This document shows positions 34,780 to 51,936 of a stretch of DNA of 64,000 bases, piece by piece. The position numbers and the translations under genes were made by a program. Under the pieces are notes generated by a model. The model saw only the letters and a program-made list of their open reading frames with translations, was not told the DNA's origin and made no database searches. Numbering within the stretch: position 1 is the first letter of the stretch; every line of letters starts with the position of its first letter. The stretch is from Streptomyces sp. B21-083 (lineage in GTDB: Bacteria; Actinomycetota; Actinomycetes; Streptomycetales; Streptomycetaceae), in the NCBI RefSeq assembly GCF_036898825.1, contig NZ_JARUND010000002.1, forward strand, positions 3,038,001 to 3,102,000, in the 5' to 3' direction.

Positions 34780-34810
34780 CAGTAGTCGGGAGGCGGAGCC
34801 GATGAGTTCC
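34780..34810 (-). promoter_or_regulatory. ECF-type promoter element, copy 1 (ABC uptake operon)
   Basis: On the minus strand GGAACTC (34810-34804), 14 nt, then CCGACTACTG (34789-34780). This gives a GGAAC -35 and CGACTA -10 with a 17-bp spacer, typical of ECF sigma promoters. It lies in the 105-bp gap before the substrate-binding-protein gene. Two other copies with identical spacing occur at 46324 and 51906. Confidence 0.7.
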
Positions 34811-34823
34811 CGGCGGAGCCCGA

Positions 34824-37800
34824 CTACTTCGCGGGGCTTGCCGGATGGGTTCTCCGTCCGGCCGGCGGGGCGGGCAGGGCGCCGGTGGAGACGCAGTGGT
34901 CGAGGTAACGGAAGACGAGGTCCCGGTCGGCGGGCGGGCAGGTGATGCCGCTGCCGCGCAGTCCGGTCACGACGTTGTCGGCGCGTACGCGTCCCAGGCG
35001 CAGGTCGGGGCCGGCGGCGGCCGCGGGGTCGGGCGCCGCTTCGGGTGCCGTTTCCCAGGAGTCGAAGAAGGCGAGCGTGGTCGCCGCGACGCCGGAGGAA
35101 CGCGGCAGTTCGGCACGCCACCGGTCCAGGGGCAGGCGTCGCAGCGGATAGCCGTACTCCTCCAGCCAGTCGTAGACGTCGCTGAGCCGCACCGGAGGCG
35201 TGGCGGCGTGGTTGAAGACGGTCGCCGCCGCGCCGGCCGGTCCGAGGCAGAGACGGACGAGGGCTTCGGCGATGTGGTCGACGGGGGTCCAGGTCTCCTC
35301 CTCGAACAGCTCGGGGACGATGCCGGCGGGTATTCCGGCGCGCAGGACGCTCCACAGGAAGTCCCGTTCGTTCACATGGCCGGTGGCGGCCGGGCCGACG
35401 ATCCGGCCGAGCCGGTGCACGGTGACCGGCAGTCCACGCTCGGCGGCCTGTTCGAGCAGGCGCTCGGCCGCCCACTTCGACTGCTGGTAGCCGTAGCGCA
35501 GGCCGGAGTGGGGTGGGAAGAACGCCTCCGGCACCTCGGGGGCGAGTGCGAGCGGTGGGGCGACGGAGAGCGTGGACACGAAGTGCAGGGGGATCGCGCG
35601 TACGGCCGCCAGGCGCAGCAGTTCCCGGGTCGACTCGGTGTTGGCGGCGCGCAGGGTGGCGTAGTCCCGCATGATGCTGACGGTCGCCGCGTTGTGGAGG
35701 ATCGCCCCGCAGGTGCGGGCCAGTTCGGCGAACCACGCCTCGTCCAGGCCCAGTCGGGGGCGGGAGAGGTCGGCGGGGAGCGCCGTGACGCGTGTGTGCT
35801 CCGTGTCCGTGAGGTGGATCCGGTGGGTCTGAAGGGCCTGGTGGATACGGGCCGTGGCCTCGGCGGGGCTCGGGGCCCGGACGGTGCAGACGACCTCGGC
35901 TTCGGTGCTCGTCAGGAGCTGTGCCAACAGGTGTACGCCGACGAAGCCGGTCGCGCCGGTCAGCAGGATCCGGTCCGGTGTGCCGCTCGCCCTGGGCCCG
36001 GCGCCGGGGCGGATGTCCGGGTCGAGGACGGTGTCGGCGAGCAGGGTCGGCGGAAGCCCGGTAGTCGCGGGGCGGGCCCGCTGCCCCAGGAAGCGTGCGA
36101 GTTCGGCGACCCTGGGGTACTGGAAGAGCCAGGCGACCTTGACCTCGCGGCCCAGTTCGACGCCGAGCCGGTTGGCGGCCTGGATGGCCTGGAGCGACTG
36201 GGCGCCGAGGTCGAACACGTCGTCCTGCGCGGCGACGGAGGCCACGCTGAGCAGTTGTCGCCAGACGCTGGCGATGGTGGATTCCAGGGTGCTGTCGGGC
36301 GCGTCGGCCTGTTCGCCGGAGCCGGGGCCGGGGCCGGGGCCGGGTGCAGGCGCGGCGAGTGCCTTCCGGTCGGTCTTTCCCGAGCCCGTCCGGGGCAGCC
36401 GTTCCAGGAACTCGACCGCCGAAGGGATCATCGCCGGTGGCAGCGTGGTCCGGAGATGGTCCCTGATCGCGGTCACGGCCGGGGCGGGCCCGTCCGGGAC
36501 GACGTACGCGGCCAGCCGTCGGGTCCCGTCCGCCAGCACCTGTCCAACGACGGCGGCGTCACGGACGCTCGCGTGAGCGAGGAGGACGCTCTCCACCTCG
36601 GCCGGGTGCACGCGCTGCCCGCTGATCTTGAACTCGGTGTCGGACCGGCCCAGATACCGCAGTTGACCGTCGTCGCCGATCCGTACGAGGTCGCCGGTGC
36701 GGTAGGCGCGGGGGGCTCCGGGGAGCGTGTGGAGGGGGGCGAAGCGGTCGGCGTCAGGAGAGCGGTCTCCTCGGTAGCCGACGGCCAGGTTGTCGCCCAG
36801 GAGATGGAGTTCGCCGTCGACGACCGCTGCCCGTGTGCCCGGCAGCGGGAGTCCGATGGGTACGTCGCCGGGGGCGAGGCCGGGGTCGTGGAGGTCGGCG
36901 ACGGTGGCGACCACGGTGGCCTCGGTCGGGCCGTACGTGTTGAGCAGCCGCACCGACGTGCCGACGGCCTTGCGCCAGCGGTCGACGCGTTCGGGCAGGG
37001 CCGCCTCGCCGCCGATGACGACGGTCCGCACCCCGGAGGGCAGGACGGCGGCGCCGGTCGACAGGGCGTAGGCCACCTCGTGCCAGTAGGCCGTGGGCAG
37101 GTCGAGGAAGCTGATGCGCGAGCGGTCGCACGCGTCGAGGAAGGCGGGAACCGAGTCGGTCATGTCGTCGGCGCGGACGACGAGCGTGGCGCCCGTGCAC
37201 AGGGTGAGGAAGATTTCCTCGACGCTGGTGTCGAAGTGCAGGGGGGCGAACTGCAGCACGCGGTCGGCGCGTTGGACGCCGTAGCGGTGGGTGGCACCGG
37301 CGACGAAGTGGGCGAGGGCCCGGTGTCCGATCTCGACACCCTTGGGGTGTCCGGTGGAGCCGGAGGTGTGCAGGACGTACGCGAGACCCTCCGGCGCCGG
37401 AATGGTCGGCGAGACCATGCCAGACACCGGCGGGGCATCCACCACGACGCCCCCGCAAGCAGGACCGTCCGGCGCCGGCACGGCCGGCCCGATCGTGTTG
37501 GGCGTCGGCGGGGCATCCGTCAGGGCGTCGGCGTAGGTGCGGGCCGTCAGGGTCAGTGCGGGGTGGGCGTTGTGCAGCAACTCGGCTCTGCGTGCCGGAG
37601 GTGTGGTCGGGTCGAGGGGGCAGTAGGCGGCGCCGGTGAGCAGGACACCGAGGATGGCGGTGATCGCGTCGATGCCGCGCGGCATGGCCACGGCCACCAG
37701 GTCCCCGGGGCCCACCCCTCGGGCGGCGAGTCGGCGGCCGAGGTCACGCGCCGAACCGAAGAGCTCCGCGTACGTCACGCTGCGGCCGTCGTGCTCTACG

Positions 37801-39206
37801 GCCACGACCCCGCCGCGCCGGGCGGCCTGGTCGGCGATCAGCCCGAGCACCGAGCGCGCCGGGCCCGGCAGTGGCCCGCCGTCCAGGACAGGGACGGGGA
37901 CGGACTCACGCGCCCGCAGGTCCGAGAGTGGCCGGTCGGGGGCGGCGACCGCCTCGCCCAGCAGGGTGAGAAGCCCCTCCTGGAACGCGGTGACGCCGGC
38001 CTCGTCGTAGAGGTCGGGGTTGGCGTCCACGGCGATGCGCAGGCCGGCGCCCTCGGAGCGGTCGTAGACGTTGACGGACAGGTCGTCGACGGGGCCTGCG
38101 GAGACGTTGTGGACGGTGCTGCGGTGTCCGGCGAACCGCAGGTCGTACGCGAACGGCATGATGTTGACGCCCGGGCCGGACAACCGGCGCTGTCCCCCGA
38201 CGAGTCCGAGGTCGCGGCGCAGCTGTTCGTAGCGGTACCGCTGGTGCGGGAGACCGGCGCGCAGTTCGCGGGAGACGCGGTCGGCGAGGTCGCGCAAAGT
38301 GTCCGCCGGGGTGACGGGGACGCGCAGGGGCAGGATGTTGCGGACCATGCACGGCACCCGGAGGGATACGGAGCCGAGGCGGCCCATCGTGGGGAGGCTG
38401 AGGACGATCTCCGGAGCGCCGGTCGCGTGGTGCAGCCGGGCCGCTGTGACCGCCAGCAGGACTTCGGACCAGGTGACTCGCAGGTCGTGGGCGACGGCGC
38501 GCAGGGTTTCCGTCCGTGCCGCGCCGAGGTCGACGACCCGCCGGTGGAAGGTGTGCGCGGGCAGGGCGGACCGGTCGGCGGGCGTGGCCACGGGTGGTCG
38601 GTCCGCGTACCGGTCCGCCCAGTGGGCGCGGTCCTTCGTGCGGCGCGGCGACTCCCGGTAGGCGCCCTCCTCCTCCCGGACCGAGGCCAGGGTGCCGAAG
38701 CCGCTGTCCTCCACCGGCTCGCCCGCGATGAGAGCCGTGTAGACGTGGGCGACCCGGCGGGCGACCAGTGACAGGCCGAAGCCGTCGAGGGCGATGTGGT
38801 GGACGCGGTGGTACCAGAGGTACTCCTGCGGGGCGATCCGCAGCAGGGCATGGCCGAAGAGCGGGCCGTGGGCCAGGTCGGCGGGGCGGGCCATGTCCTC
38901 GTCCATCCAGGCCAGGGCCGCCGCGCGGGGATCGGGCTCGGCGGTGAGGTCGTCCGTGTGCAGGGACCAGTCGCCGACGGGGGCGGTCGTCTCCCAGGGC
39001 CGCCCCTGGTCGTCGGCCACGTAGGCGACGTTCAGGGCCTCCGTCTCCGCGACCACGTGGTGCAGGGCGGTGTCGAAGACGGCCGCGTCCATCGGACCGT
39101 GGATGTGCACGTACTCGGCCGTGTTGAACGCCGGGCTGTCCGGGTCGAGCAACTGGCCGGTCCAGATGCCTTCCTGGGCGGCGAGCAGCGGCTGACGCCC
39201 CGTCAT
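34824..39206 (-). CDS. Single-module NRPS (C-A-T-reductase) of an isonitrile lipopeptide pathway, ScoA-like
   Basis: A 1460-residue synthetase. The condensation domain has HHIALDG at residues 136-142. The adenylation domain (~460-960) has YVLHTSGSTGHPKG and NTYGPTEATVV. The carrier domain has LGAQSLQA (Ser for pantetheine, ~1030). A terminal thioester reductase (~1090-1430) has LLTGATGFVGVHL and YGYQQSKWAAE. By alignment to GrsA I read the pocket as D-T-E-D-V-G-T-V-V, whose acidic E and D suit a basic residue such as lysine. Known isonitrile lipopeptides are N-acylated lysines released by reduction, which fits. The start overlaps the carrier-protein stop (ATGA). Confidence 0.9.
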   Translation of the reverse strand: MTGRQPLLAAQEGIWTGQLLDPDSPAFNTAEYVHIHGPMDAAVFDTALHHVVAETEALNVAYVADDQGRPWETTAPVGDWSLHTDDLTAEPDPRAAALAWMDEDMARPADLAHGPLFGHALLRIAPQEYLWYHRVHHIALDGFGLSLVARRVAHVYTALIAGEPVEDSGFGTLASVREEEGAYRESPRRTKDRAHWADRYADRPPVATPADRSALPAHTFHRRVVDLGAARTETLRAVAHDLRVTWSEVLLAVTAARLHHATGAPEIVLSLPTMGRLGSVSLRVPCMVRNILPLRVPVTPADTLRDLADRVSRELRAGLPHQRYRYEQLRRDLGLVGGQRRLSGPGVNIMPFAYDLRFAGHRSTVHNVSAGPVDDLSVNVYDRSEGAGLRIAVDANPDLYDEAGVTAFQEGLLTLLGEAVAAPDRPLSDLRARESVPVPVLDGGPLPGPARSVLGLIADQAARRGGVVAVEHDGRSVTYAELFGSARDLGRRLAARGVGPGDLVAVAMPRGIDAITAILGVLLTGAAYCPLDPTTPPARRAELLHNAHPALTLTARTYADALTDAPPTPNTIGPAVPAPDGPACGGVVVDAPPVSGMVSPTIPAPEGLAYVLHTSGSTGHPKGVEIGHRALAHFVAGATHRYGVQRADRVLQFAPLHFDTSVEEIFLTLCTGATLVVRADDMTDSVPAFLDACDRSRISFLDLPTAYWHEVAYALSTGAAVLPSGVRTVVIGGEAALPERVDRWRKAVGTSVRLLNTYGPTEATVVATVADLHDPGLAPGDVPIGLPLPGTRAAVVDGELHLLGDNLAVGYRGDRSPDADRFAPLHTLPGAPRAYRTGDLVRIGDDGQLRYLGRSDTEFKISGQRVHPAEVESVLLAHASVRDAAVVGQVLADGTRRLAAYVVPDGPAPAVTAIRDHLRTTLPPAMIPSAVEFLERLPRTGSGKTDRKALAAPAPGPGPGPGSGEQADAPDSTLESTIASVWRQLLSVASVAAQDDVFDLGAQSLQAIQAANRLGVELGREVKVAWLFQYPRVAELARFLGQRARPATTGLPPTLLADTVLDPDIRPGAGPRASGTPDRILLTGATGFVGVHLLAQLLTSTEAEVVCTVRAPSPAEATARIHQALQTHRIHLTDTEHTRVTALPADLSRPRLGLDEAWFAELARTCGAILHNAATVSIMRDYATLRAANTESTRELLRLAAVRAIPLHFVSTLSVAPPLALAPEVPEAFFPPHSGLRYGYQQSKWAAERLLEQAAERGLPVTVHRLGRIVGPAATGHVNERDFLWSVLRAGIPAGIVPELFEEETWTPVDHIAEALVRLCLGPAGAAATVFNHAATPPVRLSDVYDWLEEYGYPLRRLPLDRWRAELPRSSGVAATTLAFFDSWETAPEAAPDPAAAAGPDLRLGRVRADNVVTGLRGSGITCPPADRDLVFRYLDHCVSTGALPAPPAGRRTHPASPAK

Positions 39207-39448
39207 CTTGCTGTCTCCTGACGTGCGGAGAGCAGCTGCCACCACTGACCGAACGAGGTGCGTTCGGCGAGTTCGACGAAGGTGGCCTCCACACCGGTCG
39301 CCCGCCACCGCTCCATGAGGGTGACGATGCGCAGGGAGTCGAGTCCGGCGTAGAGGGGGTTGTCGGCGAGGTCGACCTCGTCGGGCCGCAGGTACAGGTA
39401 CTCCGCCAGGTCCGCACGGAAGCCCTCCAGCGTGAGGGGAGCAGGCAT
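39203..39448 (-). CDS. Acyl carrier protein of the isonitrile pathway (ScoB/Rv0100-like)
   Basis: An 81-residue carrier protein with the phosphopantetheine serine in AGLDSLRIVTLMERW. The sequence around it (YLRPDEVDLADNPLYAG) is typical of the small ACP encoded beside isonitrile NRPS genes. It carries the acyl chain that receives glycine nitrogen and is later oxidised. The ATG at 39448 has a GGAGAG site; its stop overlaps the NRPS start. Confidence 0.85.
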   Translation of the reverse strand: MPAPLTLEGFRADLAEYLYLRPDEVDLADNPLYAGLDSLRIVTLMERWRATGVEATFVELAERTSFGQWWQLLSARQETAR

Positions 39449-39498
39449 GTCGTTCTCTCTCCGGGTCTCAGGTGTCAGGTCTGTCGAGGAAGTGCCGG

Positions 39499-41061
39499 TC
39501 AGTTGACCTTGCGGGCGGAGTCGCCCCAAAAGCGGTCGCGCAGTTCGCGCCGGAGGATCTTGCCGCTGGGGTTGCGCGGGACGCTGTCGATGAACTCGTA
39601 GCGGGCGGGCAGCTTGAAGCTCGCGAGCCTCGGCACGAGGAAGGTGTGCAAGTCCCGTGGAGTGGGCGGCTGTTCGGGGTCGGGGACGACGAAGGCGTGC
39701 ACGTACTCGCCCCAGCGTTCGTCGGGGGCGCCCACGACGACGGCCTCGGCCACCCCCGGATGTGCTTCCAGTACGTTCTCGATCTCGGCCGGGTAGACGT
39801 TCTCGCCGGCGACGAGGACGGCGTCCTTGATGCGGTCGCGGATGAAGACGTAGCCGTCCTCGTCGATGAATCCGGCGTCCCCGGTGTGGATCCAGCCGTC
39901 GACGAGCGTCTCGGCGGTCCTCTCGGGCAGTCCCCAGTACTCGACCATGTGGGCGGGCGTGGCGAGGCAGACCTCACCGACCGCGCCGGGCGGGAGTTCG
40001 CGGCCCTCGCCGTCGATCACCTTGGCGCGTACGCCCGGGTACGGCCGTCCGGCGGCCTGCATGAGCGAGCCACCCGGGACGTGGGCGGCCGGGGGCAGAC
40101 AGACGGCGGTGTTGCCGGTCTCGGTGAGGCCGTAGATCTGGGCGAACTCGCAGTCGAGGACGGCGAGGCTCTCCTCCAGCAGGGCCTCGGAGATCGGGGA
40201 GCCGCCGTAGACCGTCTTGCGCAGGGTGGTGAAGTCCTCGGCGCCGACGCCGGGTTCGGTCAGCATCATGCGGAGCATGGCCGGGACGACGCAGGCGGTG
40301 GTGATGCCGAGATCGCGGATGAGGTCGACGGCCTCGCGCGGGGCGAAGGCGCGCATCGCGACGATCGTCGTGCCCGCGTCGAGGTTCTGCGTCGCCCACC
40401 ACAGGCCGCCGATGTGGAAGCCGGGGATGCCGACCAGCGCGATGTCACCGGCGCGCCAGTCGATCCAGTCGAGGCCCTCGCTCGCCAGGGCGTCCCGGAT
40501 CGCGAAGAAGCTGCGGTGGGCGAGGACGACGCCCTTGGGCAGGCCGGTGGTGCCGCTGGTGTAGATCTGGGCGACCGGGGTGTCCGGGGTCGCGGTGTCC
40601 GGGAGTTCGGTGTCGGGGTGGGGTGCCTTCCAGGCGGCGAAGGACTCGCCGAGTGCGACGACCGTCTCAGGGGGCGCGGTCGGCATCTTCTCGACGATCG
40701 GGACGAACTCGTCCTCCAGGAAGAGGAGTCGGGTGCCGGAGTCCTGGAGGATGTGGCTGACCTCGGGCGCGGCGAGCCGCCAGTTGACGGGGACCAGGAC
40801 GGTGCCGCTCTTGGCGCAGGCGAAGAGGATCTCGTAGTAGTGCTCGGACTCCTTGCCGAGGTACGCGACCCGGTCCCCCGCCGTCAGGCCGGCGGCCAGG
40901 AGAGCGTGGGCGACGCGGTTGCTCTCGCGGTGCAGTCGCTCGTAGGTCAGGGTGCGGCCCTCGCAGAGGATCGCGGGGGTGGTGGGCCGGTGCCGGGCGT
41001 GGAAGCTCGTGGTCCGGACGAGTGTCCGGAGTTCCGGTTGGTGGAGCGTGTCCGTGGTCAT
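39499..41061 (-). CDS. Fatty acyl-AMP/acyl-ACP ligase (ScoC/FadD10-like)
   Basis: A 520-residue member of the ANL adenylating superfamily. The P-loop-like motif is IYTSGTTGLPKGVVLAH, the core motif YGLTETGNTAVC, then GWIHTGDAGFIDEDGYVFIR, and the catalytic lysine lies in NPSGKILRRELR near the C-terminus. In isonitrile clusters this enzyme activates a beta,gamma-unsaturated or related fatty acid and loads it on the small ACP. It sits between the thioesterase and ACP genes, as Rv0099 does in M. tuberculosis. Confidence 0.9.
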   Translation of the reverse strand: MTTDTLHQPELRTLVRTTSFHARHRPTTPAILCEGRTLTYERLHRESNRVAHALLAAGLTAGDRVAYLGKESEHYYEILFACAKSGTVLVPVNWRLAAPEVSHILQDSGTRLLFLEDEFVPIVEKMPTAPPETVVALGESFAAWKAPHPDTELPDTATPDTPVAQIYTSGTTGLPKGVVLAHRSFFAIRDALASEGLDWIDWRAGDIALVGIPGFHIGGLWWATQNLDAGTTIVAMRAFAPREAVDLIRDLGITTACVVPAMLRMMLTEPGVGAEDFTTLRKTVYGGSPISEALLEESLAVLDCEFAQIYGLTETGNTAVCLPPAAHVPGGSLMQAAGRPYPGVRAKVIDGEGRELPPGAVGEVCLATPAHMVEYWGLPERTAETLVDGWIHTGDAGFIDEDGYVFIRDRIKDAVLVAGENVYPAEIENVLEAHPGVAEAVVVGAPDERWGEYVHAFVVPDPEQPPTPRDLHTFLVPRLASFKLPARYEFIDSVPRNPSGKILRRELRDRFWGDSARKVN

Positions 41062-41080
41062 GGCTGTCTCTCGCCTTGTG

Positions 41081-41578
41081 TCAGGGGACGTTGACGAACG
41101 CCAGGGTCGCCTCGCCGTCGCAGCGGCCCGACTCGGCGTCCCGGTAGCGGAAGGTGGTCTCGGCGTGCAGGAACGGGCTGCCGCCGGCCGGGGTCCGCCG
41201 GGTGACGGAACGGAACTCCAACTCCCCGGAGAACGCACGGGGATTGACCGGGCGTCTGAAGTTGGACGAGAAACGGGCTATGAGGATGTCCGGCAGCTGG
41301 CGCTCGAAGAAGTCGTCCAGCGTCCATGATTCGAACCCCGCGCCCAGCCCTTCCCGCACCGACTTGGCGACGAGGTAATACATCATCTGGTTGTAGCAGA
41401 TGTTCACCTCGACGGAATTCAGATGGCCGGTGTCGTCGATGTAGCACGACTCGGGAATCTCGAACTCGCAGCGGGCGGAGGCCCGTCCGTCGATTTCCGT
41501 CACGACTGCCGAACGCAGGTACCTGCAGTGCTTCTTGTAGGGCGTCAGCACCTGGGCCAGCAGGGCTTCGTCCGTCAT
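41081..41578 (-). CDS. FcoT-type thioesterase (ScoD/Rv0098-like)
   Basis: A 165-residue hotdog-fold protein of the FcoT family. The conserved stretch [20 protein letters not shown] and the C-terminal strand [20 protein letters not shown] match the M. tuberculosis Rv0098/ScoD type. In the isonitrile pathway the homologue is credited with adding glycine to the alpha,beta-unsaturated acyl-ACP and releasing the product. It overlaps the stop of the upstream oxidase gene (ATGA) and ends 19 bp before the ligase start. Confidence 0.87.
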
Positions 41579-42477
41579 GCCGTCCTGATCCCGTCCCCGA
41601 TCCCGTCGTGCAGCCTGCGTTCGTCGTGGACGGTGACGCGGTAGGAGACGGTCGGCTCGGGCGTGGTCGTGTGCCGGGCGCGGTGGATCAGGCTGCGGTT
41701 GTCCCAGAGAAGCAGGTCACCCCGCTCGAAGCTCTGCAGGTGGATGCCGTCGTGCTCGAACGTCTCGTCGAGCTGTCCGGTGGCGTCGAAGAGTCGCTTG
41801 AGCAGTTCCTCGTCGAGCCGATTGCCGTCCTGGTCCTCGATGCCGACGGTGAAGCCCTCACTGATGTAGAGGACCGTCTCGCCGGTCACGGGGTGGGTGA
41901 AGGTGGTGGGCTGGACGACGGCCGGTGTTTTCCGCTCGACCTCGTCGATGATCTCGGAGAGGGGCCGGTAGACGTCGTGCGGCCGGATTTTGAAGTACTT
42001 GCGCACCGAGTGCCTGCATTGTGTTCCGGCGATTTCCCACTTCAGTTCCTCCGGCAGTTCCCTGTACGCCCGGCCCATGTCGATGAAATACGTTCCGCGA
42101 TTTTTCTCGGGAATGACCTGGGGGTATATCAGGGTGATTCCGAAGGGGTCCGGCATGAACTGGTAGTCGGCGTGCCAGAATTTACCCGTCTTCGGTACGC
42201 CGATCTGCTTGCCGTCCTTCGGGACGTTGGAGGAGACGAACACCTCCGGGACCTCCGGGTGCTGGTACATCGGCTCGTAGTAGGTCTCGGGCCTCCCCAG
42301 CCGCCTGCCCAGTGCCAGGAACTCCCGAGGGGAGAGGTGCTGCCCCTTCAGGACGGCGATCTTCTTCGTGTAGACGGTGTTCTTGAGCGCGACGATGTCG
42401 GCGTCCGAGGCGGTCGTGTAGTCGAAGCCCTCGACGTCGGCGCCGATCGCGCCGCCGGGCTGTTCGTCGATCTCCAT
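41575..42477 (-). CDS. Non-heme iron isonitrile-forming oxidase (ScoE/Rv0097-like)
   Basis: A 300-residue TauD-fold dioxygenase. Iron ligands are His102 and Asp104 (FWHADYQF) and His265 (LIHRARH). The pocket residues reported for ScoE are all present at a constant offset of 30: Tyr66, Tyr67, Tyr71, Arg127, Lys163, His269 and Arg280. Such residue-by-residue match separates it from taurine dioxygenases. ScoE converts an N-carboxymethyl beta-amino acid to the isonitrile by oxidative decarboxylation with 2-oxoglutarate and O2. It is the hallmark enzyme of the cluster. Confidence 0.92.
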
Positions 42478-42527
42478 ACCGGTGCTTCCTTCCGTGGTCG
42501 GGCAGGGACAGGCGGGGTCAGGCAGGG

Positions 42528-42767
42528 TCAGACCGTGGCTCGGCGGGCGTCGATGAGTCCGACGACGTCGCCCAGGGTGAGGTCGGGTTCGAGTTCTTCG
42601 TCGCCGACGGTCACGCCGAGGTCGCGCTCGATACGGATGCTGATCTCCACCGTCGTCAGCGAGTCGACGTCGAGTTCTCCGAGGGTCACGCCGGGGCGGA
42701 TCCGGTCGGCCGGGGCGTCGTGCAACTTCTTGAGAAGGCCGACGAGTTGCTCATAGGTGGTGCTCAT
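42528..42767 (-). CDS. Second acyl carrier protein, paired with a KAS III
   Basis: A 79-residue ACP with the modified serine in [17 protein letters not shown]. It overlaps the stop of the upstream KAS III gene as ATGA and ends 50 bp before the oxidase gene. Core isonitrile operons have one stand-alone ACP, so this is an addition. It likely carries the chain extended or started by the KAS III partner. Confidence 0.88.
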
Positions 42768-43807: not shown

Positions 43808-43871
43808 GGAGCACTCCAGGCACGGGAAAAGTGGCGACACAAGAAGAGGAAGGGAACGTGGAAAGGGCGAC

Positions 43872-45233
43872 TTAGGGGCTCGTGGTCCCGCGCCGCATGA
43901 GCATCGCGAGCGCGAGCGCACCGCAGCCGATGCCGAGCGCGATGGCGAACACGGCCGTGCGGACGCCGTCGAGCAGCCCGGCCCCGGATGCGCTCTGTCC
44001 CACTCCCCCGGCGAGCGCGACCAGGACGGCGAGTCCCACGGCGCCGCCCACCTGAAGGGTGGTCGACGCCAGGCCGGAGGCCACACCCTGGTCACCCGGC
44101 GCGACCCCGGCGGACGCGGCGATCCACATCCCCGTCCACGCGGCGCCCTGACCGAGACCCAACAGCACGATCCCCGGCAGGAGTTTCGGATACGAGCCGT
44201 CCGAAGTGAGCGCCAGCCCGAGCGCCGCCGCTCCGGCGGCCCCCAGTGTCATCCCGCCCACCAGCATGCGGCGCATACCGAAGGCGGCGACGGCCCGTTC
44301 CCCGGCCTGCGTGCCCACGGCCACCACGACGGCCGGCACGAGGAAGGCGAGCCCGGTCGCGACCGAGCTGTAGCCGTGGACCGTCTGGAAGTACAGGGTG
44401 AGGAAGTACGGCACCGAGCTGAACGTGGCGCTGAACAGCGTGGTCACTCCCATCGCCGCCAGCAGGCCCCGGTGCGCGAACATCCGTGCCGGTACGAGCG
44501 GTTCGTGCGAACGCCGTTCCACGACGGCGAACAGTGTCAGGAGCCCGGCCGAGAGCGCCGCGCTGATGAGGGCCGTGGGGGTGGTCCAGCCCTCCGCCGG
44601 GGCCTGCACCAGCAGATACACCAGGAGGGTGATCCCGCCCGTGGCGGTGAGCGCGCCCAGAACGTCGAAGCGCCGGGTACGGTCCCGTGGTCCGTCCGCC
44701 GGGAAGAGCAGCCATCCGGCCACCGCGAGCACCGCGGCGATCGGCACGTTGACGAAGAACACCGACGTCCAGCCGAACGCCTCCACCAGCACCCCGCCCA
44801 GCAGGGACCCGAAGCAGAGTCCGCCGGCCCCCGCCGCACCCCACACCGCCAGGGCCCGGTTCCGGGCGGGTCCCTCCTCGTACAGGGTGTTGATCAGCGA
44901 CAGCGTCGCCGGGAACAGCAGCGATCCGCCGATGCCCTGGACCGCCCGCACGGCGACCAGTACACCGGGCGTCTCCGACAACCCGCCCACCAGCGACGAT
45001 CCCGCGTAGAGCAGCGCGGCGAGGACGAACATCCGGCGCCGGCCCAGCAGGTCGGCGGCCCGGCCGCCCAGCAGCAGGAAGCCTCCCGTGGAGACGACGT
45101 AGGCGCTGACCACCCACTGCAGGTCGTGGTCTGAGAAGCCGAGCCCGGCGCCGATGTCCGGCAGGGCAACGTACACGATGTTGTAGTCGAGCGAGATGAC
45201 GAGTTGCCCCAACGCCAGAACCAAAAGAGACAC
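43872..45233 (-). CDS. MFS drug:proton antiporter (DHA2-type), likely product exporter
   Basis: A 453-residue major facilitator with 14 predicted helices. It has QLVISLDYNIVYVALPDIGA (DHA2 motif D1 region), GGRAADLLGRRRMFVLAALL (loop 2-3 motif A) and VRAVQGIGGSLLFPATLSL (motif C-like). Position inside the isonitrile operon suggests it exports the metallophore. A 277-bp gap precedes it, so it could have its own promoter or be read through from the hydroxylase gene upstream. Confidence 0.88.
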   Translation of the reverse strand: MSLLVLALGQLVISLDYNIVYVALPDIGAGLGFSDHDLQWVVSAYVVSTGGFLLLGGRAADLLGRRRMFVLAALLYAGSSLVGGLSETPGVLVAVRAVQGIGGSLLFPATLSLINTLYEEGPARNRALAVWGAAGAGGLCFGSLLGGVLVEAFGWTSVFFVNVPIAAVLAVAGWLLFPADGPRDRTRRFDVLGALTATGGITLLVYLLVQAPAEGWTTPTALISAALSAGLLTLFAVVERRSHEPLVPARMFAHRGLLAAMGVTTLFSATFSSVPYFLTLYFQTVHGYSSVATGLAFLVPAVVVAVGTQAGERAVAAFGMRRMLVGGMTLGAAGAAALGLALTSDGSYPKLLPGIVLLGLGQGAAWTGMWIAASAGVAPGDQGVASGLASTTLQVGGAVGLAVLVALAGGVGQSASGAGLLDGVRTAVFAIALGIGCGALALAMLMRRGTTSP

Positions 45234-46266: not shown

Positions 46267-46323
46267 TCGGCTCTCAACTCCGTGGGGTGGCGGTCAGGCG
46301 GGTGACGAGCCGCCCTGTCGGAC

Positions 46324-46354
46324 CAGTAGTCGGCCGGGGGCGGGCCCGAGTTCC
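46324..46354 (-). promoter_or_regulatory. ECF-type promoter element, copy 2 (isonitrile block)
   Basis: Minus strand: GGAACTC (46354-46348), 14 nt, CCGACTACTG (46333-46324). It is identical in both boxes and spacing to copies at 34780 and 51906. It lies about 58 bp upstream of the hydroxylase start and could serve the whole minus-strand cluster down to the NRPS. Confidence 0.7.
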
Positions 46355-46452
46355 CGGCTTCCTCGAATTCCCTGCGGAAATTGGCCCGTTCGGCAGACAC
46401 CGGGAACCAGACCGACCCGTGCCCCGACCACTCACACATGGAGCAGAGAAGT

Positions 46453-46965
46453 GTGACGCGCGTGCCGCGCCGGACGCGGAACACCCGGTTCGCCGACGCC
46501 TTGTGGGCCGTGGCGCCGCCGTTGGGTGCCGCCGCCGGTGCGCTGGTCCTGCTGGCGGGCTACACCGCGACCGGCGCGGCAGGCGAGCCACCACCCGGGA
46601 TCGAGGTCGTCGACGCGCGCATAGTCGCCGTACCCGCGGGCTCCGGCGCCACCCGCGCGTACTTCGAGATCCGCAACACCGGCCAGTCGAAGGACACCCT
46701 GCTGTACGCGGACTCACCGGACCTGGGCGTCAGCATCCTGCGCCGCACGGTGATCCGTGCCGGCGCCGAACGCACGTACTCCGTACGGTCCGTTGAGGTT
46801 CCAGCGGGCGGCACGGTGCGTATGGCGCCGGGCGGGGTCGTGGTCGGGATCCTGGATCCGCCCGCCCTGAAGGCCGGCCGACGCGTGCCCTACGTCCTGT
46901 GGTTCGAGCAGAGCGGGAAGGTCGCCGTCCGGGCGACCGTGGTCGAGGCGGCGCCCTTGAGGTGA
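46453..46965 (+). CDS. PCu(A)C-like copper chaperone domain protein, membrane anchored
   Basis: About 170 residues. A membrane/signal segment (VAPPLGAAAGALVLLAGY) is followed by a PCu(A)C-like beta domain: GATRAYFEIRNTGQSKDTLL, VPAGGTVRMAPGGVVVGILD, YVLWFEQSGKVAVRATVV. The His and most Met ligands of classical PCu(A)C proteins are missing here, with one Met in RMAPGG, so copper binding is uncertain. GTG 46453 has GGAG 8 nt upstream; ATG 46438 is possible. It is the only plus-strand gene of the copper block. Confidence 0.7.
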   Translation: MTRVPRRTRNTRFADALWAVAPPLGAAAGALVLLAGYTATGAAGEPPPGIEVVDARIVAVPAGSGATRAYFEIRNTGQSKDTLLYADSPDLGVSILRRTVIRAGAERTYSVRSVEVPAGGTVRMAPGGVVVGILDPPALKAGRRVPYVLWFEQSGKVAVRATVVEAAPLR

Positions 46966-46995
46966 GCCTCGGTGACCGGGGCCGGAGCCGGGAAA

Positions 46996-47034
46996 GGGCG
47001 CCGGTGCCCTCCGCCCCCGTGGGCACCGGCGCCC
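46996..47034. terminator. Strong bidirectional terminator hairpin
   Basis: Perfect 14-bp arms GGGCGCCGGTGCCC and GGGCACCGGCGCCC with an 11-base loop, between the convergent PCu(A)C-like gene and the sigma-factor gene. Confidence 0.85.
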
Positions 47035-47040
47035 CTCCTG

Positions 47041-47712
47041 TCACGCGGCGACGGCAGCCGGGCTCTGGTCCGCCTCGGCCGCCTCGGCCTCGTCGAGCAG
47101 CTCGACGAGCGTCGCGCGGGCGCGTGCCACCCGGGAGCGGATCGTCCCGACCGGGCAGCCCCCGGCGACGGCGGCGTCCTCGTAGGGCAGCCCCACCAAC
47201 TGGGTGAGGACGAACGCCTCGCGGCGCTCGACGGGCAGCGCGTCCAGCAGGTCGAGCAGGGCCACGCCGTCGTCGAAGCCGGGCAGGCCCATGGGCTGGG
47301 CACGCTCGGCCCAGCTCGTCCAGTCGTCCACGTCCGCCCGTCGCGGCCGGGTGGCGGCGTACCGCAGGTTGTCGATGACCGTGCGGCGCGCGATGGACAG
47401 CAGCCAGGTGCGTGCCGACGAGCGGCCCTCGAACCGGTGCAGGCCGCCGAGCGCCCGCAGGAACGTGTCCTGGGCGAGATCGGCGGCCAGTTGGCGGTCG
47501 CCGGAGAGGTACGTGACGTAGCGGACGACGTCCGAGTACAGGGCCCGCACGAAACGGTCGACGGCGTCGGGATCGCCGGCACGGGCGGCGAGGGCATGGA
47601 CAGTGGCCGGGTCGTCGGGCGTCGCCGTCGTGACGGGCCGACCGGACGCCGTGCGCCCCGCGTCGAGCTTCCTGGACGACAGGGGCGACAAGCGGAGGAC
47701 AGGAGTGATCAC
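47041..47712 (-). CDS. ECF RNA polymerase sigma factor
   Basis: A 223-residue ECF sigma factor. Region 2 is visible as RALYSDVVRYVTYLSGDRQL with DLAQDTFLRALGGLHRFEGR (core binding and -10 contact). Region 4 has LPVERREAFVLTQLVGLPYE and GTIRSRVARARATLVELL (HTH for the -35). The start is GTG 47712 with AAGGA well placed; upstream codons lack protein character. No classical anti-sigma gene is adjacent; the next gene upstream encodes a Met/His-rich membrane protein. Three ECF-type promoter copies flank it in the window. The M. tuberculosis counterpart locus is controlled by SigC, which also lacks a known anti-sigma. Confidence 0.9.
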   Translation of the reverse strand: MITPVLRLSPLSSRKLDAGRTASGRPVTTATPDDPATVHALAARAGDPDAVDRFVRALYSDVVRYVTYLSGDRQLAADLAQDTFLRALGGLHRFEGRSSARTWLLSIARRTVIDNLRYAATRPRRADVDDWTSWAERAQPMGLPGFDDGVALLDLLDALPVERREAFVLTQLVGLPYEDAAVAGGCPVGTIRSRVARARATLVELLDEAEAAEADQSPAAVAA

Positions 47713-47935
47713 CTGATGTCCTTCTCGGGTGGTCCGGGACCGGTCCGCATGGCGGCGACACCCGCGAGCGTGCGCTGGGCACGCCGGGCGTGTGCTCCAC
47801 CACTGCGGAGGGTCCCGGGACGGGAGGGGGAAGGGGCGTACGACGTGCACGCCCCGCGCCCGAGGCCGCGTAACCGCGTATCCGAGGCACCGACAGACGC
47901 GGCACCGGCGGGACGGCTTCGGGGAGCCTGCTGTC

Positions 47936-48640
47936 TCAGATGACAGCGGTCCCGGCCGGAGGCCCCCGAGAGATGATCGTGTGCGTGAGCGTCAGCCGCG
48001 GGATCCGCTCGGCACGCTCACGGGTCGGCCGCAGACGGGGCCGGCGCGGGGGAACGGGCAGGGCGAGAAGGGGCAGCCGCAGCGGAGCGGCCAGCCATCC
48101 GGCGACGGCCCGCAGGAGCCTGAAGGCGGCCCGCTCGCCGTACGCCAGCCACAGCCCGGTCAGCAGTGCGGCCAGCGTGTGGGCGGCGAGCATGCCCAGC
48201 GACGACATACCGCCGGAGCCCTGAGCCAGGTGTCCGAGGTGTTCGGCGTGCGTCGCGTGGCCCATGTGCGCGGAGTTCATCGGCATGGAGCCCATGTCCA
48301 TGGCGTCCATGGGCATCGAACCGTCGGACATGCCACTCATGCCACTCGTGTCCCGCGCCGCGGCACCCGTGCCGGAACCCGATGTGGCCGCCCCACCCCA
48401 CGAGAAGGCCGAGTGGAGTGCCCCCTGCACGACGACCACGACGGACACCACCAGCGGGAGCCCCCGCTCACGGCCCGCCAGGGTCCAGCCGACAGCGCTC
48501 GTGGCGGCGAAGCCGGCGGACAGCGTCCACCATGGCACGGTGGAGCCCGACATGAGTACGTGTCCGAGGGCAGCGAGCAGCACACAGACGGCCGCGAACA
48601 CCGCGGCTCGTATCGTGCGCGCACCCCGCCCTGCAGTCAT
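47936..48640 (-). CDS. Met/His-rich integral membrane protein, copper-related
   Basis: A 234-residue protein with about four to five hydrophobic helices. The middle extramembrane stretch is extremely Met/His/Asp-rich (MSGMSDGSMPMDAMDMGSMP, then HMGHATHAEHLGHLAQ), a typical soft-metal binding segment. The C-terminal tail is Arg/Pro-rich and cytosolic. It lies between the ECF sigma gene and a PCu(A)C gene on the same strand. It could buffer or deliver copper, or report copper status to the sigma factor; the latter is inference only. Confidence 0.75.
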   Translation of the reverse strand: MTAGRGARTIRAAVFAAVCVLLAALGHVLMSGSTVPWWTLSAGFAATSAVGWTLAGRERGLPLVVSVVVVVQGALHSAFSWGGAATSGSGTGAAARDTSGMSGMSDGSMPMDAMDMGSMPMNSAHMGHATHAEHLGHLAQGSGGMSSLGMLAAHTLAALLTGLWLAYGERAAFRLLRAVAGWLAAPLRLPLLALPVPPRRPRLRPTRERAERIPRLTLTHTIISRGPPAGTAVI

Positions 48641-48796
48641 GACGGCCTCATCCTCGCATCCGGGCTCCGCTCGTCACAGGTGGGTACGCACGAGACCCGG
48701 GCCCCCAACTCACCCAGAAGGGAGTGATACAGAACACAGGGCTTCGCCGGAACCCGAAGAACAGTCCGAACGACTTCTACGGATGCGGACGAGCCG

Positions 48797-49324
48797 TCAG
48801 CTGCCGTCCTCGCCCGGCCGGACCACTACCGCCAGGGTCTTCACGGCCCCGCCGCGCTCGAAGTGCAGCGTGAACGAGACGAGGTCGCCCGGCTGCCAGC
48901 CGCCCTTCTTCACCGGCACTATCACGTCGAGGCCGTCCGGTGACATGGCGAGGCTTTCGCCGGCCGGCACGGCGACGGAGTCCACCGTCAGGTCCGAGGC
49001 CGTGTTGGAGCTGTTCATGACGTGCCGGCTCAGCACGGCCTCCCCCGCGCCCACCTCGGCGGACGTCACTCTCAGCAGACGGTCCGGCGCGCCCCCGCTG
49101 TTGGTGATCCGGAAGAAGGCCGCCGTGACCGGGGTGGCACCCGAGGGTGTGAACATCCTGCCGCCGGTGACCTCGATCCGGGCGGGACTGCCGGCGTTGC
49201 CGAAGACGGTCCACGTGCTCAGCCCGCCGAGCGCCAGCCCGCACACGGCGACGGGCGCGAGCACGGCCGACAGGGAATCGGTGAGCCGTCGGGAGGTCGG
49301 GCGCCACGGCCACTGTCCGGTCAT
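48797..49324 (-). CDS. PCu(A)C-type periplasmic copper chaperone
   Basis: A 175-residue protein. A membrane/signal anchor (VLAPVAVCGLALGGLSTWTV) precedes a PCu(A)C domain with TAAFFRITNSGGAPDRLLRV, VLSRHVMNSSNTASDLTVDS (His and Met) and VAVPAGESLAMSPDGLDVIV (Met). The ligand set is partial compared with the classic H-M-H-M arrangement. It overlaps the stop of the Cu-ATPase gene (ATGA), so chaperone and pump are made together and copper hand-over to it outside the membrane is likely. Confidence 0.8.
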   Translation of the reverse strand: MTGQWPWRPTSRRLTDSLSAVLAPVAVCGLALGGLSTWTVFGNAGSPARIEVTGGRMFTPSGATPVTAAFFRITNSGGAPDRLLRVTSAEVGAGEAVLSRHVMNSSNTASDLTVDSVAVPAGESLAMSPDGLDVIVPVKKGGWQPGDLVSFTLHFERGGAVKTLAVVVRPGEDGS

Positions 49325-51612
49325 CGGGCACGTCTCCGGGAAGCCGGTGAGGCCGGGGGCGCGGGCTGCCAGGCGCGCAGCCGCAGGCTGTTGGCGACGA
49401 CCAGCACCGAGCTCGCCGACATGGCGGCGGCGGCCAGCATCGGGTTGAGCAGGCCGACCATGGCGAGCGGGACGGTGACGACGTTGTAGCCGAAGGCCCA
49501 GACGAGGTTCACACGGATGGTGCCCAGCGTGCGCCGGGCCAGCAGCACCGCGTCCGCGAGGCCCTCGATGTCACCGCGGACGAGGGTCACGTCGGCGGCG
49601 CCGATGGCCACGTCCGTGCCGCTGCCCATGGCGATCCCGAGGTCGGCACCCGCGAGCGCGGCGGCGTCGTTCACGCCGTCACCGACGACCGCGACCCGGT
49701 AGCCCTGCTCCTTCAACTCCCGTACGAGGTCGGCTTTTCCCTCGGGTGTGCAGCGGGCGTGCACCTCCTCGATGCCGAGCGCCTCGGCGACGGCACGGGC
49801 AGGTGCCTCGCGGTCACCGGTGGCCAGCACGGGCCGTACGCCGAGCCGCCGCAGGCGGTCCACCGCGCGGTAACTGCCGGGCCGTACGACGTCACCGATC
49901 TCGATCAGCGCTTCGACGGTACCGTCCACCCGGACCGTCACGGCCGTACGGGCGGCGGACTCGGCTCCCGCCAGGGCCTGCGCGAGCACGGCGGGCAGGT
50001 CGTCGTCGGGCGACAGGACCTCGACCAGCCGCCCCTCGACCAGCCCCCGCACGCCTCGCCCCGGCAGCGCCCCGAACTCGCTCACGTCCGGCAGCCGCCG
50101 CCCGCCCGACTCCCGGCGCGCGTGGGCGGAGACGGCCCGGCCGAGCGGATGTTCCGAGCCCTGCTCCACGGCCCCCGCCAACCGCAGTACCGCGTCGCTC
50201 CCGAGCCCGTCCGGCAGGGCGGTGACCTTGGCGACGGTCATACGGCCGGATGTCAGAGTGCCGGTCTTGTCGAGGACGACCACGTCGAGATGCTGAAGCC
50301 CCTCCAGCGCCTGCGGCCCGGTGACCAGCACGCCGAGCTGGGCACCCCGGCCGGCGGCGGCCAGCAGCGCGGTCGGCGTCGCGAGCCCGAGGGCGCACGG
50401 ACAGGCCACGACCAGTACCGCCACACACGCGGTGATCGCCGCCTGCGGATCGGCTCCGGCGCCCAGCCAGAACCCGAGCGCGGTGACGGCCAGCGCCAGC
50501 ACCATCGGCACGAAAACCCCGGCGACGGAGTCGGCCAGCCGCTGCGCCCGCGCCTTCCCCGCCCGCGCCTCGGTCACCAGCCGGGTGATCCGGGCCAGCT
50601 GGGTGTCCGCACCGACCGCTGTGGCCCGTACGAGGAGCAGCCCGCCGGCGTTGACGGCCCCGCCGACCATGGCCGAACCGGGCCCGACCTCTACGGGCTC
50701 GCTCTCACCGGTGACCAGAGACAGGTCCACGGCCGAACTGCCCCCGGTGACCTGCCCGTCGGTGGCGACCCGCTCGCCCGGCCGCACGACGAAAACCTGC
50801 CCGGCCCTCAACTCCTCGATGGGGATGAGCCGTTCGGAGCCGTCGTCCTCCCGGACGGACACCTCCTTGGCCGCGAGGCGGGCCAGCGACCGCAGCGCCT
50901 CGCCGGTCCCGTGCCGCGCCCGTGCCTCCAGGAACCGCCCGGCGAGCACGAACAGCGTTACGCCGACAGCCGCTTCGAGGTAGAGGTGCGCGGCCCCGTC
51001 CGAGGCGGTGGGCACGAGGGTGAACGGCATCCGCATCCAGGGGTCGCCTGCCCCGCCGAGGAACAGCGCGTACGACGACCACGCGAAGGACGCCACCACA
51101 CCCAGCGACACCAGGGTGTCCATGGTGGCCGCCGAGTGCCGCAGCCCCCGGACGGCCCGTACGTGGAAGGGCCAGGCACTCCACACGGCGACGGGCGCGG
51201 CGAGCACGAAGCACAGCCACTGCCAGTTCCGGAACTGCAGTGCGGGCGCCATCGACAGTACGAGCACAGGGACGGACAGCAGGGCGGTGACGACCAGACG
51301 GTGCCGTTCCTGCCGAGCGCCCTCGGACTCGTCGCCGTCGTCATCGACGGCGGGCTCCCGTTTGCCGGGCGGCTCGGGCAAAGCGGCCGTGTATCCGGCC
51401 TTCTCCACAGTAGCGACGAGTTCGTCCGGACCGATGTCCGCCGGGTGACTCACGCGAGCCGTTCCGGTGGCGAGATTGACGGTCGCGGTGACCCCGTCCA
51501 GCTTGCCGAGCTTCTTCTCGACGCGGGTCACGCACGCGGCGCAGGTCATGCCGCCGACGGTCAGATCGGTCGTCAGCAGGACGGTCCCCGCAGTCCCCGG
51601 TTCGGCACCCAT
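49321..51612 (-). CDS. Copper-translocating P1B-type ATPase (CopA/CtpB-like)
   Basis: A 763-residue heavy-metal ATPase. One N-terminal metal-binding domain has GGMTCAACV (Cys24, Cys27). The membrane metal site is VVACPCALGLATPTALLAAA (CPC). The phosphorylation site is VVLDKTGTLTSGRMTVAKV, then GDGVNDAAALAGADLGIAMG. The last helices contain FGYNVVTVPLA and AMSASSVLVVANSLRL, the YN...MSxSS signature of P1B-1 Cu(I) pumps. It moves Cu(I) out of the cytoplasm, either for detoxification or to feed cuproenzymes. Co-transcription with PCu(A)C and the ECF-type promoter favours the latter. Confidence 0.95.
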   Translation of the reverse strand: MGAEPGTAGTVLLTTDLTVGGMTCAACVTRVEKKLGKLDGVTATVNLATGTARVSHPADIGPDELVATVEKAGYTAALPEPPGKREPAVDDDGDESEGARQERHRLVVTALLSVPVLVLSMAPALQFRNWQWLCFVLAAPVAVWSAWPFHVRAVRGLRHSAATMDTLVSLGVVASFAWSSYALFLGGAGDPWMRMPFTLVPTASDGAAHLYLEAAVGVTLFVLAGRFLEARARHGTGEALRSLARLAAKEVSVREDDGSERLIPIEELRAGQVFVVRPGERVATDGQVTGGSSAVDLSLVTGESEPVEVGPGSAMVGGAVNAGGLLLVRATAVGADTQLARITRLVTEARAGKARAQRLADSVAGVFVPMVLALAVTALGFWLGAGADPQAAITACVAVLVVACPCALGLATPTALLAAAGRGAQLGVLVTGPQALEGLQHLDVVVLDKTGTLTSGRMTVAKVTALPDGLGSDAVLRLAGAVEQGSEHPLGRAVSAHARRESGGRRLPDVSEFGALPGRGVRGLVEGRLVEVLSPDDDLPAVLAQALAGAESAARTAVTVRVDGTVEALIEIGDVVRPGSYRAVDRLRRLGVRPVLATGDREAPARAVAEALGIEEVHARCTPEGKADLVRELKEQGYRVAVVGDGVNDAAALAGADLGIAMGSGTDVAIGAADVTLVRGDIEGLADAVLLARRTLGTIRVNLVWAFGYNVVTVPLAMVGLLNPMLAAAAMSASSVLVVANSLRLRAWQPAPPASPASRRRAR

Positions 51613-51848
51613 CAGCCGTGTCCCCCCTGCATGTCGTCCATACCCCCGGTGCCGCCTCCGCCGCCACCGCCACTACCGCCGTGCATGCCGGGTGCGACAG
51701 GGCCGGCGCCGGCGCCGACGGCGTAGGACACCGTGAAGATCAGGGCCAGCAGCAGCAGGAAGCCGAAGAGCGCGGGCGGGGGCGCCGCCCTCCGCACCAC
51801 CGCACCCAGGCCGCTCGCGCTCGATGAGGATTGCCGGGACTCGTCCAT
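51612..51848 (-). CDS. Small single-pass membrane protein with Met/His-rich tail
   Basis: A 78-residue protein: a polar N-terminus, one membrane helix (PPALFGFLLLLALIFTVSYA) and a Gly-rich outer tail rich in Met and His (APGMHGGSG, GGMDDMQGGHG), apt for Cu(I) binding. The start at 51848 has GGAG 8 nt upstream; a longer frame from 51986 lacks coding character. TGATG overlap with the Cu-ATPase start makes it the first gene of that operon, about 60 bp behind an ECF-type promoter. Confidence 0.75.
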   Translation of the reverse strand: MDESRQSSSSASGLGAVVRRAAPPPALFGFLLLLALIFTVSYAVGAGAGPVAPGMHGGSGGGGGGGTGGMDDMQGGHG

Positions 51849-51905
51849 CAACCGCGTCTCCAGGTCATGTCGTACGGCGTCGCTCGGAATCGCGCTGTAC
51901 CGAAG

Positions 51906-51936
51906 CAGTAGTCGGAACGGGGCCGGACCGAGTTCC
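51906..51936 (-). promoter_or_regulatory. ECF-type promoter element, copy 3 (Cu-ATPase operon)
   Basis: Minus strand: GGAACTC (51936-51930), 14 nt, CCGACTACTG (51915-51906). Boxes and spacing equal those at 34780 and 46324. It is placed 58 bp before the small membrane-protein gene. Confidence 0.7.

Follow-up and report, generated by a model that had tools for sequence, protein, structure and literature searches.

We analyzed a 64,000-nucleotide stretch of the Streptomyces sp. B21-083 genome (contig NZ_JARUND010000002.1, positions 3,038,001 to 3,102,000 of the forward strand; hereafter, the window, with positions counted from its first letter), in which one promoter-like element recurs in front of genes predicted to produce a diisonitrile lipopeptide chalkophore, to take up its copper chelate and to transport copper by a P1B-type ATPase. 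It is very likely that a SigC-like extracytoplasmic function (ECF) sigma factor, encoded among these genes, reads this element as its promoter under copper shortage and transcribes four units, three in the window and one on another contig. Under this mechanism, copper shortage would render the sigma factor (47041-47712, minus strand) active, and the sigma factor would then direct transcription of the chalkophore block, of an ATP-binding cassette (ABC) operon for re-import of the copper chelate, of a unit comprising a small open reading frame (ORF), the Cu-ATPase and a PCu(A)C chaperone, which would probably serve copper delivery to extracytoplasmic cuproenzymes and not detoxification, and of a distant PepSY_TM gene, whose product may release chelated copper after reducing it. 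The link between the sigma factor and the element rests on their association and on experiments in Mycobacterium tuberculosis, the copper-starvation signal on the behavior of M. tuberculosis SigC, and the biochemical roles of the proteins on family membership.

Results

The element, GGAACTC-N14-CCGACTACTG, spans 31 bp and occurs three times in the window, always on the minus strand and with a spacer of exactly 14 nt. Copy 1 (34780-34810) lies 61 nt, counted here and below from the last base of the element to the start codon, before a substrate-binding protein gene (start at 34718); copy 2 (46324-46354) lies 57 nt before an Asp/Asn hydroxylase gene (start at 46266) that heads the isonitrile block; and copy 3 (51906-51936) lies 57 nt before a 78-codon ORF (start at 51848) that heads the Cu-ATPase unit. 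An original prediction, made from the sequence of the window, had placed the three copies at these coordinates, about 55-65 bp before the first genes, and both the coordinates and the distances were reproduced; it was also right about the unit downstream of copy 3, except that the first gene of this unit is the 78-codon ORF and not the ATPase. As it had further argued, the copies are not a simple duplication, given that their spacers differ from one another. The element was not matched in any of 100 dinucleotide-shuffled versions of the window. GGAAC is an ECF-type -35 sequence, and the fixed distance between the two boxes and the short distance to the downstream genes are those of an ECF promoter. 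These features support the assignment of GGAAC as the putative -35 box and of CGACTA, with an extended CTG, as the putative -10 box.

The source genome (10.5 Mb, 5 contigs) contains four exact copies of the element. The fourth (G000:C1:903669-903699, minus strand) lies on another contig, with a PepSY_TM gene (PF03929, 241.9 bits versus a cut-off of 28.8) starting 90 nt further on. A scan with up to 3 mismatches found 47 places (4 with no mismatch, 0 with one, 4 with two and 39 with three), and the same scan with the element written backwards found 99; therefore, the exact-match class alone stands out. All four exact copies precede genes of metal-related families. The regulon had been called self-contained, and this part of the original prediction has to be revised because of the fourth exact site on another contig. 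Chance repetition or duplication as the origin of the three copies was ruled out by the shuffles together with the genome-wide mismatch scan.

The ECF sigma factor gene, predicted to lie between the copies, is indeed present at 47041-47712, with the domains Sigma70_r2 and Sigma70_r4_2. The protein thus has sigma regions 2 and 4, and SigC is its closest characterized relative: SigC (NF007231) was the best of 82 NCBIfam families matched (162.7 bits), and the best chain of solved structure was SigC, as well (85 bits versus 63.8 for the runner-up). The next ECF paralog in the source genome reached 74.9 bits and 35% identity to the window protein, which is the sole close SigC-like ECF factor found in this genome; relatives in Mycobacterium-like genomes (group g4, one of which has a PPE gene) reached 133-165 bits and 48-55% identity. 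The closest homologs with a name are from Streptomyces. The sigma loci beyond the genus came from 36 matches taken from among those listed. A tree of 82 rows had an unresolved backbone; the branches of the SigC-like rows were mostly short, and those of the eight paralogs from the source genome very long.

Across 150 genomes of the genus, the sigma gene (E<=1e-50) was found in 105, and the gene for the isonitrile-forming enzyme ScoE in 16. The pattern GGAAC-N17-CGACTACTG was present in 63 of the 105 sigma-bearing genomes versus 5 of the 45 genomes without the sigma gene (p=1.3e-8), with 97 and 5 matches, respectively; the total of 102 compares to 57 for the same pattern backwards. This backwards control showed no link to the sigma gene (37/105 versus 12/45, p=0.35). 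Thus, the element tracks with the sigma gene in related genomes. The longer form GGAACTC-N14-CCGACTA was found in 48 of the 105 sigma-bearing genomes and in 2 of the 45 others.

The spacing was similarly constrained. In 56 rank-ordered sigma loci (L086-L141; these are sigma ranks 1-59, from which the source genome itself, G068:C1:8657748 and the stop-containing G017:C915 were left out, and the position of L092 was moved by 5 kb), there were 27 matches to GGAAC-N17-CGACTA in 22 loci, whereas N20 had two matches and the other nine spacings tried between N12 and N22 had none. A count over 80 loci gave 39 matches versus 1 backwards; however, this set is biased because L142-L165 were partly picked for a nearby element or ScoE, so that the 56-locus count is to be preferred as unbiased in this respect. 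Most often, the element stood 45-65 nt before the downstream start codon. The fixed spacing and the association with the sigma gene across genomes bear out the proposal that one ECF-type element links chalkophore synthesis, uptake and the Cu-ATPase.

The genes downstream of the element extend this picture. There were 64 matches to GGAACTC-N14-CCGACTA, 4 of them in the source genome, and the downstream gene was read for 30: PepSY_TM in 19 cases, an uptake substrate-binding protein or FecCD permease in 3, an ABC ATPase in 2 (weak matches), and a hydroxylase, a Cu-ATPase and a CopZ-like protein in one case each, with no family assigned to the remaining 3. The CopZ-like gene had no BLAST match, and we take it to be CopZ-like from its HMA-type motif. 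On reading, the element stands before a small CopZ-like gene of the HMA type in two genomes, at L083 and L131. As for the 19 PepSY_TM sites, a sigma match is less than 10 kb away in 2 cases, on the same contig at a distance of 47 kb to 7 Mb in 6 and on another contig in 10; the remaining site is in a genome with no sigma match. Because 16 of the 19 are more than 40 kb from the sigma match or on another contig, linkage fails to explain them. PepSY_TM genes would therefore be a recurrent target of the element, which this analysis adds to the predicted regulon. Several Mycolicibacterium ScoE loci also hold a PepSY gene.

The FecCD uptake operons appear to be a further addition. Twelve loci of genomes that gave no ScoE match (L091, L093, L094, L096, L098, L099, L103, L110, L131, L132, L141 and L143) have the element downstream of the sigma gene, ahead of an operon for a substrate-binding protein and FecCD permease, the latter being 46-52% identical to the window FecCD, suggesting that such operons are targets of the element in the absence of ScoE. 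In L097, the element is in place and the FecCD genes are on the opposite strand. The possibility that the regulon is confined to the chalkophore cluster was ruled out. Because the sigma gene is far more widespread than ScoE and because the element elsewhere precedes other copper genes, the isonitrile cluster does not define the regulon, which is apparently wider.

Outside the genus, 79 loci were fetched with mycobacterial ScoE. GGAAC-N17-CGACTA had 77 matches in 46 of these loci, versus 5 in total over spacings 13-16 and 18-21; both the sigma match and the element were present in 30 loci, the element alone in 16, the sigma match alone in 4 and neither in 29. Many mycobacterial loci have the sigma gene and a ctpB-like ATPase gene in divergent orientation, close to a PPE-nrp operon. 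Among 37 such loci longer than 15 kb, the element occurred in 29, and in 23 it stood on the plus strand before PPE or ScoE. The -10 box before the ATPase is CGACTC in some loci and CGACTA in others. For example, in the PPE-bearing genome, where the first gene of the operon encodes a PPE protein, the element precedes PPE and, with CGACTC, the ATPase; the nrp-linked sigma factor of this genome passes the NCBIfam SigC cut-off (226.1 versus 219 bits) and scores 232.7 bits on NF009187, under the cut-off of 290.

These arrangements uphold the suggested parallel to M. tuberculosis SigC. According to the accessible part of PMC7924339, induction of SigC in M. tuberculosis raises ctpB and ppe1-nrp, the sigC deletion mutant grows poorly without copper, and SigC prevents copper starvation; in BCG, chromatin immunoprecipitation pointed to predicted promoters before the ctpB and ppe1-nrp regions that are almost identical (PMC7924339).

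In Nocardia, the sigma gene and its membrane neighbor, described below, face FecCD/ABC-ScoE genes in 4 of 5 loci, and the element precedes the genes for the substrate-binding protein and FecCD in 3 of these 4. When either CGACTA or CGACTC was accepted, 34 non-mycobacterial ScoE loci longer than 15 kb showed the element in 14 of the 15 loci that have uptake or hydroxylase genes, compared to 2 of the 19 that do not. The ScoE clusters thus seem to be of two classes, one carrying the element and the other mostly lacking it. Seventeen ScoE loci have no element and no uptake or hydroxylase match (L244-L248, L250, L259, L263, L266, L267, L269-L272 and L279-L281); perhaps, their isonitrile products have another role or are under another control.

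Evaluation of the proposed regulon

Several observations weigh against reading these units as the regulon of the SigC-like factor. The window sigma misses the NF007231 cut-off for SigC (162.7 versus 219 bits). In the sigma tree, the nrp-linked and cobK-linked mycobacterial sigma factors fall into different subclades, so that it is unsettled whether the nrp-linked or the cobK-linked type is closer to M. tuberculosis SigC; none of the 79 ScoE loci was from M. tuberculosis. The strict element is missing from 42 of the 105 sigma-bearing genomes; no element was found within about 10 kb in 34 of the 56 sigma loci, including L087-L089, with sigma genes 79-83% identical to that of the window. In the 79 ScoE loci, the element without a sigma match (16) and the reverse (4) both occur. 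Finally, over the 150 genomes GGAACTC-N14-CCGACTA is rarer than its backwards control. Because of this control, the raw genus-wide count of that form was dropped as evidence, and the sharper pattern, the cross-tabulation with the sigma gene and the downstream genes were used instead. It should be noted that one mycobacterial genome (L169, L205) has two SigC-type sigma genes, one by the ATPase/PPE-nrp genes and the other by a gene that, on reading, is cobK-like; the relatives of L169 and L205 itself are in different subclades of the tree.

An alternative is that a copper- or zinc-responsive transcription factor binds the element as its operator and that the link to the sigma gene is mere gene clustering. 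Many copies do lie within a few kb of the sigma gene, so that part of the association could be linkage. However, the element is bipartite and non-palindromic, has one fixed spacer, a GGAAC -35 box and a position mostly 45-65 nt before the start codon, and 16 of the 19 PepSY_TM sites are far from the sigma match or on another contig; we consider an operator quite improbable. With respect to the signal, the regulon might answer zinc or general metal stress instead of copper starvation. A Mycobacterium marinum nrp mutant has been reported to contain less zinc (cited in the accessible part of PMC7924339), but PCu(A)C, Cu-ATPase and CopZ-like genes are among the predicted targets, and there is little reason to favor this signal. 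The least credible alternative, that another ECF factor reads the element and the SigC-like factor reads something else, can draw on the 11 further ECF paralogs of the source genome (E<=1e-8) and on the many orthologous sigma genes with no element nearby, yet it runs counter to the association over 150 genomes, to the co-localization in Streptomyces, Nocardia and Mycobacterium, and to the control of the counterpart operons by SigC in M. tuberculosis (PMC7924339). Control of the four units by the SigC-like factor remains the interpretation that we prefer, and the original prediction is, overall, partly supported by these sequence comparisons.

The membrane neighbor of the sigma gene

The upstream neighbor of the sigma gene, M234 (47936-48640, minus strand), which the original prediction overlooked, encodes a polytopic membrane protein that has a C-terminal RGPP tail and a long loop rich in Met and His. 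M234 is preceded by a gap of 156 nt and the sigma gene by one of 223 nt; the two may be read either from copy 3 or from promoters of their own. Judged by the C-terminal RGPP/RAPP signature, 70 of 74 entries have M234 on the strand of the sigma gene and upstream of it (one gene is counted twice, as L150/L165, L155 is an edge artefact, and L114 and L138 have two genes each); two of the four entries that fail the signature (L111 and L141) do have a tblastn match to M234. The same pairing was observed in 11 of 12 loci of family f17, in one further genus of family f4 and in 4 of 5 Nocardia loci. At L138:9077, the element (match L070, one of the 3 with no family assigned downstream) stands before a second M234-sigma pair, downstream of the first, as if one SigC-like factor controlled another.

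M234 is a candidate copper sensor or regulator of the sigma factor. In the most specific form of this idea, M234 would be a new membrane copper sensor, in which the Met/His loop together with H27, H76, M150, H154 and M30, residues within or close to the membrane segments, would bind Cu(I), and the cytosolic RGPP tail would hold the sigma factor until copper runs out; we put this forward tentatively, considering it somewhat doubtful. A 19-residue hydropathy scan of 25 sequences gave 3 to 5 membrane segments, with 4 in 15 sequences, and the segments varied. Mean numbers of Lys and Arg were 2.4 at the N-terminus, 0 in the first loop, 2.0 before segment 3, 2.2 in the 68-residue Met/His loop (which has 6-26 Met/His), 2.8 after segment 4 and 8.5 in the tail; this distribution suggests that the Met/His loop is outside and the tail inside. 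Residues H27, H76, M150, H154, W164, G168, E169, R225, P227 and P228 are invariant in an alignment of 25 rows, and M30 is kept in 93% of 70 sequences. The sensor interpretation gains from the recurrence of membrane partners rich in metal-binding residues with SigC-type sigma factors. It was marked down because the membrane side of the tail is unsettled.

The evidence against such a role is as follows. Segment 2 is weakly hydrophobic and a fifth stretch, 178-196, is a possible extra pass, which would put the tail outside. M234 has no Pfam match up to E 5, no NCBIfam match and no known anti-sigma domain, and no match to zf-HC2 or DUF2275 was seen in any M234 protein scanned. M234 was absent from all 12 Mycobacterium-like g4 genomes searched, which belong to a chosen set of 14 not drawn at random. 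Furthermore, in two f17 genomes, M234 paralogs adjoin YcnI-like, CopC-like and PepSY genes with no sigma match (the YcnI-like and CopC-like neighbors were identified by reading alone); thus, the pairing of M234 with sigma genes is conserved but not exclusive. In that family, the paralogs directly precede a PepSY gene in L294, a YcnI-like gene in L296 and a CopC-like gene in L297. Letter patterns resembling zf-HC2 beside Streptomyces sigma genes were found in 6 of 72 entries, none of them anti-sigma-like on reading; one of the six (L095) is within the M234 frame itself. M234 as a plain, proven anti-sigma factor was not accepted, in view of the missing anti-sigma domain, the paralogs without a sigma gene and the unsettled side of the tail.

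Other genes of the window

All genes discussed here are on the minus strand unless stated otherwise. The uptake operon after copy 1 comprises the substrate-binding protein (PF01497, 33678-34718), the FecCD permease (PF01032, 32647-33681, tested as 32647-33828, with an uncertain start codon) and the ABC ATPase (31850-32686). The block between copies 1 and 2 appears to be the isonitrile lipopeptide gene set of the diisonitrile chalkophores, and the product is predicted on this basis; the set is complete, with ScoE, FcoT, ligase, acyl carrier protein and a nonribosomal peptide synthetase (NRPS) with a reductase domain. In order of transcription, it begins with the aspartyl/asparaginyl beta-hydroxylase (PF05118, 45511-46266), the first gene after copy 2, and continues with a major facilitator superfamily (MFS) transporter (PF07690, 43872-45233, tested as 43895-45233, stop from ORF reading), a KAS III-like ketoacyl synthase (42764-43807, tested as 42764-44095, start from ORF reading), a ScoB-like acyl carrier protein (PF00550, 42528-42767, tested as 42561-42773, ends from ORF reading), the isonitrile-forming oxygenase/decarboxylase ScoE (41575-42477; NF049937 passed, 525.2 bits versus a cut-off of 400), a ScoD-like FcoT thioesterase (PF10862, 41081-41578), an acyl-ACP/CoA ligase of the ScoC/FadD10 type (39499-41238, the likelier start being an ATG at about 41061) and a ScoA/Nrp-like NRPS with condensation, adenylation, peptidyl carrier protein and reductase domains (34824-39308).

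The unit after copy 3 begins with the 78-codon ORF (51612-51848), which has a hydrophobic stretch and a Gly/Met-rich tail; it had no significant family match, and many relatives have a match to it before their Cu-ATPase. It is followed by the P1B-type Cu-ATPase (HMA and E1-E2_ATPase, 49321-51612; TIGR01511 passed, 491 versus 397 bits) and a PCu(A)C copper chaperone (PF04314, 48797-49324). A second PCu(A)C chaperone gene (46381-46965, plus strand) is divergent from the hydroxylase gene. Its counterparts in L099 and L102 have a copy of the element before them, whereas the window gene has none of its own.

Discussion

If the proposed regulon is correct, a copper-starvation sigma system known experimentally from a pathogen extends to common, easily manipulated soil bacteria, and its promoter signature can be read in genomes, separating ScoE clusters that carry the signature from those that do not. 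The analysis flags PepSY_TM and M234 as possible parts of actinobacterial copper acquisition. Should the sensor interpretation of M234 hold, it would offer a model for the sensing of copper shortage by SigC-type factors, a question stated to be open for M. tuberculosis in the accessible part of PMC7924339. We found no report of such a regulon in Streptomyces in the open-license literature, supplements excluded.

Comparison to known systems

The PepSY_TM protein resembles those of the CrpH type in that PepSY_TM is tied to copper supply, CrpH being a proposed copper reductase (PMC13038864, accessible part); this likeness is by PepSY_TM family and not by assignment to the CrpH cluster, and here the protein belongs to a putative actinobacterial SigC-type regulon. 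The biosynthetic block corresponds to the ScoA-E and SF2768 isonitrile lipopeptide clusters in having ScoE, FcoT, ligase, acyl carrier protein and the NRPS with its four domains, whereas the window adds the hydroxylase, the KAS III-like synthase, the MFS transporter and the shared ECF element, which many other ScoE clusters lack.

M. tuberculosis SigC belongs to ECF36, a group in which some sigma factors carry their anti-sigma domain in the same protein, with N-terminal membrane helices and DUF2275 (PMC8999054, accessible part). On reading, we observed SigC in one frame with an N-terminal zf-HC2-like and His-rich membrane domain in 5 of 10 g4 sigma loci (L172:8865-10220, L173:8886-10241 on the minus strand, L174:8866-10236, L177:8815-10185 and L180:8880-10259), and Pfam confirmed zf-HC2 and DUF2275 in the two of the five that were checked, L172 and L180. 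This fusion as such is not new (PMC8999054). It is broken in L205 and out of frame in L176, and in L183, from another lineage, a gene for a zf-HC2-like and His-rich domain follows the sigma gene, on reading. As in the fusions (PMC8999054), a SigC-type sigma factor is accompanied in Streptomyces and Nocardia by a membrane partner rich in metal-binding residues; in contrast to them, M234 is a separate gene and matches neither zf-HC2 nor DUF2275. If the sensor interpretation is true, M234 would correspond to the His-rich zf-HC2/DUF2275 domain of some mycobacterial SigC fusions without being homologous to it.

The closest known system is the SigC regulon of M. tuberculosis, with which the window shares a SigC-like ECF factor, a chalkophore block and a P1B ATPase as predicted targets, and the same element in mycobacterial relatives. 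The accessible part of PMC7924339 describes sigC of M. tuberculosis as monocistronic, with no known anti-sigma factor; in the window, the sigma gene is located among its own putative targets, beside M234. The chalkophore operon begins with PPE1 in M. tuberculosis and with the hydroxylase in Streptomyces sp. B21-083, where, unlike in M. tuberculosis, the ABC chelate importer, the PCu(A)C genes and PepSY_TM are among the predicted targets, as well.

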